A DNA stretch of 64,000 nt, taken from positions 975,001 through 1,039,000 of the forward strand of contig NZ_CP040751.1 of the NCBI RefSeq assembly GCF_008001235.1, in the 5' to 3' direction. The position numbers were made by a program, and so were the translations under genes. The notes below the pieces were generated by a model. That model was not told the DNA's origin, searched no databases, and worked only from the letters and a program-made list of their open reading frames with translations. This document shows positions 20,927 to 23,249 of the stretch, piece by piece. How positions within the stretch are numbered: the first letter of the stretch is position 1; the number at the start of each line of letters is the position of its first letter. The stretch comes from Salidesulfovibrio onnuriiensis (GTDB taxonomy: Bacteria > Desulfobacterota > Desulfovibrionia > Desulfovibrionales > Desulfovibrionaceae).

Positions 20927-21421
20927 ATGGCTCTTTTCAATAAAAAGAACATCGCCGAAGGCAACCCGGGCGAGTTGAACGCCTTTCTGGGCGTGGGCAC
21001 CGAATACCGGGGCAAGCTTGACTTCGTGGGCACAGTGCGTATAGACGGCTCCTTTGAAGGGGAAATCTCCACCGACGGCACCCTGGTGTTGGGCCGCGAG
21101 GCCACCATCAAGGGCACCGTGCGCGTCGGAGAACTCAGTTCCTGCGGCAAGATCCTGGGCGACGTCGCGGTGCAGGGCAAGGCCGTCCTGCAGCAGACCT
21201 CGACCCTGGAAGGCAGCCTTGTTGCCGAAAAGCTCGTGGTGGAACAGGGCGCCGTGCTCCAGGGCGATATTTCCATGACCGGGGGCTTTGTGCGGACCGT
21301 GGCGCCCAGCGCCGACAATGTGGTCCGCGCCGACTTTGCTCCCGCAGCCGAGTTCGCGGACGAATTCCCCGAGGAAACCGAAGAAGAACAGCAGGCCGAA
21401 GCCGCGGGCGGCGTCAGTTAG
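20927..21421 (+). CDS. Bactofilin family cytoskeletal protein
   Basis: A 164-residue protein. Residues about 15-125 form the bactofilin (DUF583) right-handed beta-helix, seen as repeating six-residue hydrophobic turns (GKLDFVGTVRIDGSFEGEIS; TDGTLVLGREATIKGTVRVG). The N-terminus is short and polar, and the C-terminus is an acidic disordered tail (EEFPEE-like). Bactofilins polymerize without nucleotide and scaffold cell-wall or polarity proteins. The adjacent 51-residue gene starts 29 nt downstream and precedes a strong terminator, so the two form a small operon. Confidence 0.93.
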   Translation: MALFNKKNIAEGNPGELNAFLGVGTEYRGKLDFVGTVRIDGSFEGEISTDGTLVLGREATIKGTVRVGELSSCGKILGDVAVQGKAVLQQTSTLEGSLVAEKLVVEQGAVLQGDISMTGGFVRTVAPSADNVVRADFAPAAEFADEFPEETEEEQQAEAAGGVS

Positions 21422-21450: not shown

Positions 21451-21606
21451 ATGTTTGAACTCGTTATCATCACCAAGGACAGGGAACGCGTGGTCTACAA
21501 GGCCGAAAAGAAGCTCGACGTGGAATTGGAGCGTCAGCGTCACGTCCGTTCCCTGGGTGAAGGCGTCGCGGAAATCCGCGAAGTCAAGGCTGGCAAGAAG
21601 AAGTAG
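21451..21606 (+). CDS. Small basic protein, 51 residues, unknown function
   Basis: The reading frame begins MFELVIITKDRERVVYKAEK and ends KAGKKK. GAGGAGG lies seven bases before the ATG, an excellent ribosome-binding site, and codon use matches the neighbours. The gene is followed at once by a stem-loop and an intrinsic terminator, so it is the last gene of the bactofilin unit. No known domain was recognised; it is predicted to be alternately beta and charged helical. It may be a partner of the bactofilin filament. Confidence 0.75.
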   Translation: MFELVIITKDRERVVYKAEKKLDVELERQRHVRSLGEGVAEIREVKAGKKK

Positions 21607-21675: not shown

Positions 21676-21699
21676 AAAGGGACCGTTGTCGGTCCCTTT
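21676..21699. terminator. Second stem-loop, possible backup or opposite-strand terminator
   Basis: Arms AAAGGGACC and GGTCCCTTT around GTTGTC form a symmetric hairpin 19 bp after the main terminator. It could stop transcription arriving on the minus strand from the small sigma-54-linked gene. Confidence 0.5.
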
Positions 21700-21772
21700 C
21701 CTGAATCAAGTGGAGGATGTTTCTTGTATTTTCATGGCCTGCTCTGAGGAGGCCTTGTGAGGGGGCCGCTTG

Positions 21773-21804
21773 GGCGGCCCGGCTGGTTCGGGGGCCGGGC
21801 CGCC
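21773..21804. repeat. GC-only inverted repeat downstream of the small basic ORF
   Basis: Perfect 11-bp arms GGCGGCCCGGC and GCCGGGCCGCC separated by 10 bp. No T tract follows on either strand, so it is either a strong structural element of a minus-strand transcript or a Rho-type pause region. Confidence 0.45.
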
Positions 21805-21840
21805 ACGGATGCGGGCTGTATGGTAATGACCTGTCTTTCC

Positions 21841-22098
21841 TCAGGGCCTCGGTTTTCCAACCAGGGCGCTGGGTGGGGAGTAGTCCGGTACGAGGGGGTG
21901 GGGAGAGGTCCGGACGTGCACCCTGGCCAGAGAGGGGATGGCCCCGTCCACGAAGTGGGCGGAATGACAGGTCCCCGTAACAATCCTGAGCCGCGCTCTT
22001 CGCCTTCCGGGACGGAGCCGCACCGGGCTCCAATCCTTGAGAAGGCGCAGGAGCCTTCTAGCTGCTTGTGTCAGAGTGGTGAGAGTAGCGGTATTCAT
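21841..22098 (-). CDS. Candidate small basic protein (85 residues) under a sigma-54-type promoter
   Basis: The frame starts MNTATLTTLTQAARRLL and ends GKPRP. AAGGA lies about nine bases before the ATG, and the ATG is about 20 nt after the start predicted from a near-consensus sigma-54 promoter. The product is arginine-rich (RLRPGRRRARLRI) with a proline-rich tail; no domain was recognised. Codon use includes AGA, AGG and CGA, unlike most neighbours, so either recent origin or a non-coding RNA with a fortuitous frame is possible. The promoter context is stronger evidence of transcription than the frame is of translation. Confidence 0.42.
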   Translation of the reverse strand: MNTATLTTLTQAARRLLRLLKDWSPVRLRPGRRRARLRIVTGTCHSAHFVDGAIPSLARVHVRTSPHPLVPDYSPPSALVGKPRP

Positions 22099-22125
22099 GC
22101 TGTTCTGTCCTTGTTGGATCCCTAT

Positions 22126-22142
22126 AAGCAGGGGGCGTGCCA
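22126..22142 (-). promoter_or_regulatory. Sigma-54 (RpoN) promoter
   Basis: Minus-strand TGGCACG, four bases, then CTGC followed by TT. This differs from the -24/-12 consensus TGGCACG-N4-TTGC at one base. The spacing between GG and GC is exactly canonical, and the small ORF begins about 30 nt downstream. Confidence 0.72.
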
Positions 22143-22196
22143 AACACGGAAAAGCAGCAAAAACAGCCGGTTGAGTTGATCGGGTGATCAAGGCGG

Positions 22197-22248
22197 TTGT
22201 GCAGCTCTTGCACAAAGCTGCACAATAAGGTGCAGGCATATTGCACTT
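22197..22248 (-). promoter_or_regulatory. Upstream activator-site cluster (TTGTGCA-type palindromes)
   Basis: A perfect 19-bp palindrome (TTGTGCA, 5 bp, TGCACAA) is followed by a further TGCACAA and by a 22-bp inverted repeat (AAGGTGCA with TGCACTT). It lies roughly 55-110 bp upstream of the sigma-54 promoter, where bacterial enhancer-binding proteins normally bind. Confidence 0.62.
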
Positions 22249-22265
22249 GTGTGCAGGAAGAGCTG

Positions 22266-23249
22266 TTATTCCGGCATGACTAGGAGGTAATAGCCCACAG
22301 CCACAAGGCCGATGCTCAGGGCGCGCAGGGTCTGGTTCCAGGCGATGAGCCTGGCGGCCATGCCCGGCTTGAAGATCCCCGCGTAGTACGGGAACTGGTG
22401 CCGGAAGGCGCGCATGGGCGAGGACAGGAAGTTGGCGATGAGCAGGGCCAGCACCACCTGGTGCGGCTGGAGCACCCCGGCCGTGAGCAGGGCCGCGGCC
22501 GTGGACAGCCCGCCGTGGATTTCGCCCAGCAGGTAGACCGCGATGATGCTGATGGCCTCGGGCGGCAGGAAGTCGAAGACGCCCATGTTGTCGCCCATGG
22601 TCTGCTGCAGCCACTGGAACACGCCCCAGTGCTTTGCCAGGAAGATGAGCGTGAAGATGGGGATGGTGACGTAGGCGATCTTGGGCAGCCGCTTGCGGAA
22701 CCGTTTCCAGGCGCGGGCCAGGGGATGTTCGTTTTTGCGGTTTTCGGCGGCCTCGTCCAGGCGGCAGGGCACGCAGCCCTCGGGCAGGGGCGGCAGCACG
22801 AAGTGGCCCACCAGCACGATGCCTCCGGTGCGCAGGAGCGCGGCAAAGGCGCTCAGGCCCACATAGGCCCAGCCCGCATAGGGCGAGGCGCTGAAATAGC
22901 CCAGGATCATGCCGTAGAGGCTGGGCAGGTGCAGGAAAAAGGTGGGGAAGCTGTTGAACAGGTTGGAAAAGAGCAGCTCCCGGTCGTTGATCTGGCCCTT
23001 GTCGTAGGCCTCGGCCAGCATGCTGTTGGCCGTGAATCCGGAAAAGAAGGCCATGGAAAAGCTGGCCGCGGCAATGTCCTTGAGCCGGCCCAGGCGCGCC
23101 AGGGGCGCCGCCAGCACGGCCACATGGCGCGTCCAGTTCAGGGTCTCAATGAGGATGCCCGCAAACAGGCCCACGCTGATGAAGAAGATCAGGCGCACCA
23201 GCGGCCAGAGCAGCCCGTTGTAGATCTCGGGCCAGGTAAGCGAATCCAT
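22266..23249 (-). CDS. Nucleoside recognition (Gate) domain membrane protein
   Basis: A 327-residue polytopic protein with about eight hydrophobic segments. The SMAFFSGFTANSMLAEAYDKG region and the paired late segments (LLGEIHGGLSTAAALLTAGV) resemble Gate-domain proteins related to nucleoside transporters and spore-maturation proteins SpmA/SpmB. In non-sporulating bacteria these are of unknown transport function. The start lies 6 nt after panB, so the two are cotranscribed. Its stop codon is next to the enhancer-like palindromes of the following sigma-54 promoter. Confidence 0.85.
   Translation of the reverse strand: MDSLTWPEIYNGLLWPLVRLIFFISVGLFAGILIETLNWTRHVAVLAAPLARLGRLKDIAAASFSMAFFSGFTANSMLAEAYDKGQINDRELLFSNLFNSFPTFFLHLPSLYGMILGYFSASPYAGWAYVGLSAFAALLRTGGIVLVGHFVLPPLPEGCVPCRLDEAAENRKNEHPLARAWKRFRKRLPKIAYVTIPIFTLIFLAKHWGVFQWLQQTMGDNMGVFDFLPPEAISIIAVYLLGEIHGGLSTAAALLTAGVLQPHQVVLALLIANFLSSPMRAFRHQFPYYAGIFKPGMAARLIAWNQTLRALSIGLVAVGYYLLVMPE

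Follow-up and report, generated by a model that had tools for sequence, protein, structure and literature searches.

The window, the 64,000-nucleotide stretch of Salidesulfovibrio onnuriiensis DNA analysed here, contains on its minus strand a locus that we interpret, with modest confidence, as an RNA gene that depends on sigma-54 and belongs to a ZraPSR-like (envelope/metal stress) regulon. Its product would be a dual-function RNA, the RNA half of which is more lasting than the protein half. A broader proposal, which we hold tentatively, is that the gene belongs to an RNA family of sulfate reducers that is controlled by sigma-54 and a stress regulator, occurs where Hfq is not detectable, and places a near-leaderless membrane-protein gene and an anti-Shine-Dalgarno RNA on the same bases; in some lineages the frame would have disappeared or been rebuilt without loss of the pairing.

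Promoter and candidate activator

The sigma-54 −24/−12 element of the window sequence (TGGCACG-CCCC-CTGC-T) lies on the minus strand at 22142–22127. The 64 kb contain a single TGGCACGNNNNYTGCW, with 0.05 expected and an occurrence in 5 of 100 shuffles. A perfect palindrome, TTGTGCA-N5-TGCACAA, at 22197–22215 has no second match in the window even with two mismatches allowed (0.16 expected), and across the 3.89-Mb genome TTGTGCA-N2..8-TGCACAA occurs nowhere else. The 160 nt that precede the −24 element contain four TGTGCA/TGCACA hexamers, compared with 0.42 in shuffled sequence, and only 1 of 2000 shuffles is as high. The same hexamers precede the 30 aligned relatives (mean 4.20 versus 0.55 shuffled; at least two in 30/30). 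The half-site cluster is located 55–114 bp from the sigma-54 element, which is downstream of it, and the half-sites are ∼80–140 bp upstream of the predicted start at 22116, a normal enhancer distance. The locus thus combines a TGGCACG-N4-TTGC-like element with upstream activator sites, and both the near-consensus promoter and the enhancer-like cluster of the initial annotation are borne out. A chance promoter is ruled out by the genus-wide recurrence and by the shuffle counts for the element, hexamers and palindrome.

The RNA gene is flanked by a minus-strand permease gene at 22266–23249 (Gate domain PF07670, 29.5 bits versus a cut-off of 29.6) and, on the opposite side, by a convergent gene at 21451–21606 that encodes 51 amino acids and has no Pfam or NCBIfam family. 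Past the latter, the gene at 20927–21421 is presumably bactofilin-like. By eye, a AACATRCTGAAAT-like stretch recurs ∼30 nt upstream of −24, between the enhancer sites and −24, at many loci, also in other genera, and is possibly a site for a DNA-bending protein. A second sigma-54-like element in the window, TGGCACGCAGGTTGCC (∼1229–1214, minus strand), was also seen by eye some tens of bases ahead of a frame whose beginning resembles that of a lipoprotein.

The activator site and sigma-54 pattern occur together at four places in the window genome, including the window locus. The pattern at 3435491 precedes an operon for a ZraP-like protein, a DUF4405 protein, a ZraS-like histidine kinase and a sigma-54 response regulator, so that the site recurs before the operon of an enhancer-binding protein, where the initial annotation had suggested looking for it. 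The ZraP-like product scores 47.3 against Pfam Metal_resist (PF13801), above the cut-off of 29.2, and matches the ZraP model with an E-value of 1.2e-10. ZraS is the best model for the kinase, and the regulator has receiver, AAA+ and Fis-type domains. The names carry “-like” because the curated NCBIfam equivalog cut-offs are not reached (ZraP, 41.8 of 200 bits; ZraS, 259.2 of 479; ZraR, 413.5 of 760), and the regulator scores higher on the AtoC model (456.5 of 714). Since the same sites and promoter are common to the RNA gene and this operon, the ZraR-like regulator is the likely activator, and the sites most likely belong to it. This assignment follows the co-localisation logic set out in PMC4641369. 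In a family-wide scan, a stricter pattern was found in 74 of 159 genomes; a ZraP homologue was present at 11 of 30 fetched loci, mostly right behind the promoter by position.

The two remaining places in the window genome differ in content. The third, 10 kb beyond the zraP-like operon, is followed by a short transcript (L066; G000, the window genome, C1 3445469, minus strand). Behind such a site, 13 other genomes have, by eye, a frame for a SHOCT-like small membrane protein, one of which was scored (28.3 bits versus a cut-off of 27); the frame seems interrupted at L051 (G015). In G000, G002, G011 and G016 (loci L066, L037, L047 and L052), no SHOCT-like frame was seen by eye, only a short RNA with ACACCTCTCC/ACACCTCCCC-like CU-rich motifs and a terminator. 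We presume that these short CU-rich RNAs represent the same gene as the SHOCT-like one. The fourth place contains the gene of a CII-like phage regulator (CP76; L067 1193–1501); this gene has a sigma-54 promoter and TGCACA-type sites of its own, and TGCGACA-like repeats lie nearby.

Three forms of the element in the genus

The search set comprises 36 genomes of the genus (Pseudodesulfovibrio), including that of the window. The activator-site and sigma-54 pattern is present in 36/36, with one reversed-control match in total. The element takes three forms. Type C, the majority form, is found in 30 genomes, each matched by both the small-protein profile and the RNA model R1, which were themselves built from type-C members. 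Type A, the form of the window, is found in four (G000, G016, G027 and G028) and type B in two (G003 and G010). The small-protein profile matches 30/36 genomes of the genus and 0/211 other genomes of the family, and a single small protein used as query retrieves only three loci in the named genome collection. R1 gives 11 weak matches in other genera (E-values of 0.0017–0.0098 per genome).

The forms share a genomic position in part. At 18 of 30 permease loci, the promoter lies within 450 nt 3′ of the permease gene (4 type A, 2 type B and 12 type C). Six further type-C copies (L078–L083) adjoin the permease, and other type-C copies are located elsewhere. The 51-amino-acid gene occupies the far side, as in the window, at L015–L017, L020, L023 and L031; because the permease and the 51-amino-acid gene flank both, these type-C copies and the type-A copies are positional counterparts. 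R1, built on type C, matches the transcript start of a type-A copy, L007 (E 6.8e-4), and of two type-B copies, L011 (5.5e-4) and L019 (0.012). The window copy scores below significance (7.8 bits with E 0.084 over 4 kb; a 10.5-bit match elsewhere is higher), and R1 has no match at the element in L008 or L009.

The alignment A1 contains 30 type-C copies from 28 genomes. L018, L027 and L031 were left out as the same places as L075, L074 and L084, respectively, and so was L030 (G008), which is identical in sequence to L029 (G009). The copy of G023 and the second copy of G006 were found later and are not in A1. The ends of L023b, L070 and L060 in A1 were set by hand; for the fold and motif statistics, these three copies were truncated to round lengths.

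Coding and RNA signals

The predicted transcript is ∼440 nt long in the window copy and ∼300 nt in most relatives. In the window it probably continues past the frame to the terminator at 21699–21676, so the 85-codon frame would span part of a larger conserved RNA (Table 1). No known RNA or protein family was found for it in Rfam, Pfam or NCBIfam: at gathering thresholds the window has no match to Rfam, and the 85-codon frame has no Pfam or NCBIfam family up to an E-value of 1. The RNA is strongly folded (minimum-free-energy z of −6.1 in the window copy; −5.9, −8.4 and −7.4 in the three type-A relatives; mean −5.6 in the majority form). The GTCCGG..CCGGAC hairpin, the GACCUGU/ACAGGUC long-range helix and the GC-rich hairpin are kept in all four type-A species. 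Their positions are 97.9% paired, compared with 27–47% in slid controls; with four sequences only, covariation is no better than in shuffles (268/500).

Table 1. Positions of predicted elements of the RNA gene in the window
Feature	Position	Strand	Basis
TTGTGCA/TGCACAA half-site cluster, predicted ZraR-like enhancer-binding-protein sites; core palindrome 22197–22215	22197–22256	−	enrichment; recurrence before zraP-like operon
Sigma-54 −24/−12 promoter TGGCACGCCCCCTGCT	22127–22142	−	pattern count versus shuffles; counterparts across genus
Predicted transcription start (+1)	22116	−	inferred from spacing to −12 element
Ribosome-binding site AAGGACAG; present in type A, not in near-leaderless majority form	22105–22112	−	sequence
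85-codon basic ORF; weak constraint over the N-terminal 35 codons, selection as protein improbable in the C-terminal part	21841–22098	−	pN/pS, type-A comparison
Hairpin AGAAGG-CTCCTGCG-CCTTCT, roughly at P1 position of majority form	22040–22059	−	by eye; related L007 matches model R1 there
Hairpin GGAGC..GGCTCC, roughly at P2 position	22014–22031	−	by eye; L007 match to R1
5′ arm of long-range helix, within stretch (GACCTGT, identical in 4/4 type-A species)	21966–21976	−	type-A comparison
Hairpin GTCCGG..CCGGAC; its CU-rich loop ACCTCTCCCCACCCCCTCGTA contains CU motifs predicted to be unpaired	21883–21915	−	type-A comparison, folding
Second CU-rich stretch TACTCCCCACCC, predicted unpaired	21871–21882	−	type-A comparison, folding
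3′ arm of long-range helix (GACAGGTC)	21828–21835	−	type-A comparison
GC-rich hairpin GGCGGCCCGG..CCGGGCCGCC, pairing in 4/4	21773–21804	−	type-A comparison
CU-rich stretch CATCCTCCACTT ahead of terminator	21708–21719	−	type-A comparison
Intrinsic terminator AAAGGGACCG-ACAA-CGGTCCCTTT	21676–21699	−	sequence; same-place terminator covaries in majority form

The 85-codon frame runs on the minus strand from an ATG at 22098 to a stop codon ending at 21841 and is basic (15 R+K, 3 D+E). The ribosome-binding site and the basic frame without a recognised family are present as initially annotated; the frame as the product of the gene holds only for its start. For codons 2–35, pN/pS in type A is 0.45 and 0.42 in frame versus 0.67–1.66 in the other frames. 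For codons 36–84 it is 0.66 and 0.84 in frame versus 0.92–1.19, and the two type-A pairs use different C-terminal frames owing to a 1-nt gap in a hairpin loop, in RNA that is otherwise conserved. A full-length conserved protein of 85 codons is rejected on this frame switch and these ratios. What the four type-A genomes thus share is a ribosome-binding site followed by a basic frame that has diverged and that shows weak constraint as a protein at its start only, and in the window species at most the N-terminal third of the diverged frame would still matter as a peptide. Of the checks proposed in the initial annotation, conservation of the frame was in this way set against that of the RNA.

The arrangement pictured in the initial annotation, a sigma-54 promoter with enhancer sites ahead of an unknown small product, recurs across the genus, but in 30 of the 36 genomes the 5′ part of the RNA encodes a different small product, a predicted single-pass membrane protein of 62–68 residues with a hydrophobic 15-residue stretch in 30/30 aligned copies. 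The type-C start codon lies 12–13 nt (11 in one copy) past the GC of the −12 element, which corresponds to ∼+1 to +3. If transcription starts where the spacing predicts, the AUG is at ∼+2 and the mRNA would be nearly leaderless. The start-codon position and the hydrophobic stretch in the 30 aligned copies, together with the coding signal at the start of the majority-form frame and the low ratios of type-A codons 2–35, would also be expected if the gene simply produced an mRNA for a small, rapidly evolving stress protein, with folding that stabilises the message or controls its translation and with CU-rich stretches of no special role. We consider this alternative unlikely in view of the RNA evidence from the majority form and of the copies that lack a frame.

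In the 30 aligned transcripts, the helices P1 and P2 and the terminator are paired in 95.9% of cells (slid controls, 34–48%). Changes on both sides are observed at 17 of the 29 pairs, beyond a shuffle mean of 7.3, and none of 500 shuffles reaches 17; covariation events are fewer than cells because the sequences are related. The covariation of helices, which is not measurable in the window's form, extends inside the frame in the majority form. At column pair 41–62, both-side changes in eight sequences also alter amino acids, so this P1 pairing is maintained to the detriment of the peptide, which counts against an mRNA alone. Synonymous change is also low at codons 7–12 and 20–25 (pS 0.00–0.27 versus 0.39 for the whole frame), and the conserved 3′ part lies outside the frame.

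The ordinary-mRNA reading is further opposed by copies that retain most of the RNA pairing without an intact frame. In the two type-B genomes, no ATG frame close to the start reaches 25 residues, and the only frames listed are a GTG one of 29 codons and a TTG one of 30; in type-B L011, P2 is fully paired and P1 contains two non-standard pairs. In G006, an unlinked second copy (L164; C1 2036011–2036107, minus strand) matches R1 with 44.6 bits, and its frame stops at codon 4. By eye, L164 has a sigma-54-like element, the P1 and P2 pairing and the terminator; its enhancer sites are weaker, and it falls outside the site-plus-promoter matches. In other genera, inspection by eye likewise showed C-rich RNAs with no conserved frame downstream of such sites (L130, L131 and L133–L136 in one genus, L129 and L148). 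Because the RNA is retained where the frame is lost, we regard its function as RNA as the more fundamental of the two.

These same copies, the C-rich RNAs at L130, L131 and L133–L136 and the C-terminal frame that differs between type-A species would suit a purely non-coding small RNA whose frames are by-products of stop-poor, GC-rich sequence. Such an explanation is rather improbable given the substitution pattern of the majority-form frame. Among 64 close pairs of the 435, pN/pS for codons 2–12 is 0.16 in frame versus 1.63 and 5.09 in the other frames, followed by 0.65 versus 1.50 and 1.13 for codons 13–32, and 0.79 versus 1.00 and 1.07 from codon 33 to the end. Frame 0 is open in 30/30 copies versus 2/30 and 9/30 for the other frames, a count that is partly by construction, as the collection filter required a frame of 56–74 residues with a motif. 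Gaps between the start codon and column 200 measure 3, 9, 12 and 15 nt. Over all 435 pairs, the whole type-C frame has a pN/pS of just 0.84 (1.01 and 0.94 in the other frames), and its C-terminal half is therefore weakly constrained. Purifying selection is thus evident at codons 2–12 of the majority form and weakly in the window form. The dual-function RNA guessed at in the initial annotation, which remains our preferred interpretation, gains support from this coding signal, from the helix covariation and from the copies without a frame.

The CU-rich motifs of the RNA are predicted to be exposed. In the majority form, CCCTCCTCACC is located between P1 and P2 in most rows, and more CU-rich motifs are observed in the 3′ part. 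CCTCC occurs 3.0 times per RNA versus 1.16 in shuffled sequence (at least twice in 27/30), and GGAGG 0.10 times; the unpaired probability of CCTCC is 0.69, compared with 0.43 for other 5-mers. In type A, CCTCC is hardly enriched (2.25 versus 1.71 shuffled; GGAGG 0.75), and its unpaired probability is 0.77 versus 0.40. By eye, the majority form is C-rich and G-poor in its 3′ part. Alternatively, such stretches could serve Rho utilisation or protein binding, and the RNA could act by titrating a protein. This would fit genomes in which Hfq was not found but is very improbable, since a Rho site is not needed where there is an intrinsic terminator and the motifs are predicted to be mostly unpaired, as in base-pairing RNAs.

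Candidate mechanism and relation to known systems

In the mechanism that we propose for the dual-function RNA, the sensor kinase would phosphorylate the ZraR-like response regulator, which, judging from the shared sites, would bind the TTGTGCA/TGCACAA sequences and open the sigma-54 promoter. The product would be a terminated, strongly folded RNA with unpaired CU-rich stretches. These may pair with the Shine-Dalgarno regions of selected mRNAs and lower their translation without Hfq; of all the steps, this target pairing has the weakest support. The 5′ part of the RNA would, in most species of the genus, also be translated from ∼+2 into the small single-pass membrane protein. Trans-acting base pairing is less typical without Hfq. 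The Hfq model PF17209 matched 0/36 genomes of the genus, whereas the control search matched 5/14 genomes, E. coli among them, and the RNA accordingly falls outside the Hfq-dependent class of Qrr and SgrS. As no Hfq was found in the 36 genomes, protection of the RNA must come from its own helices or from another chaperone.

The Cpx and sigma-E responses include RNA arms. If our interpretation is true, a ZraPSR-type envelope-stress two-component system gains one as well, in bacteria in which Hfq was not found. Within the genus, the gene exists in coding, diverged and frame-less versions, which makes the relation of peptide to RNA testable with natural alleles; if true, these versions constitute a natural experiment in the gain and loss of the protein half by dual-function RNAs. 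In searches of one open-access library, no paper joined Pseudodesulfovibrio with small RNA, or Desulfovibrio vulgaris with sRNA and DseA, and the titles and abstract openings returned contained no report of an RNA in a ZraR-type regulon.

Both sigma-54-driven small RNAs and dual-function RNAs are already known as kinds. In D. vulgaris, the regulator DVU3381 targets DVU3382–DVU3381 and DVU3384, according to Kazakov 2015 (PMC4641369) and Rajeev 2011 (PMC3333781), and Table 1 of PMC4641369 gives no RNA for it. Like the operon of the window genome, the ZraPSR and DVU3381 systems place a sigma-54 response regulator beside a kinase, here also beside a ZraP-like gene, and have few target operons; as a guess, DVU3381 may be the counterpart of the regulator described here and DVU3384 that of ZraP. 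The same Table 1 lists sigma-54-driven non-coding RNAs under DVU0653, DVU0679, DVU1419 and DVU2359, and the DVU1419 RNA is filed there under envelope stress. These RNAs resemble ours, by description only, in that a sigma-54 promoter and an enhancer-binding protein drive an RNA in Desulfovibrionales.

Likenesses to other regulatory RNAs are partial. RsaE and the cuckoo RNAs expose CU-rich anti-Shine-Dalgarno loops; the CCTCC/CTCCCC motifs here, predicted to be exposed, are similar, although the present RNA is longer and multi-domain and the likeness is one of motif. SgrS/SgrT is a dual-function RNA. VcdRP of Vibrio cholerae is described as another (PMC8672173). Both combine, as the RNA here may, a small protein frame with possible base-pairing segments on one RNA; unlike them, the RNA here has a predicted near-leaderless start at a sigma-54 promoter, its frame overlaps the helices, Hfq was not found and its RNA role is a prediction. 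The Qrr small RNAs of Vibrio under LuxO share with it sigma-54, an NtrC-type response regulator and a small RNA product. Qrr RNAs depend on Hfq and have no ORF, unlike the present RNA, which is without an Rfam match and occurs in a set of 36 genomes in which Hfq was not found. Tandem copies of the element are observed in two genomes of the genus (L020 and L023, in G002 and G011), where each copy has its own enhancer sites and promoter and the protein of the first copy is the more diverged.
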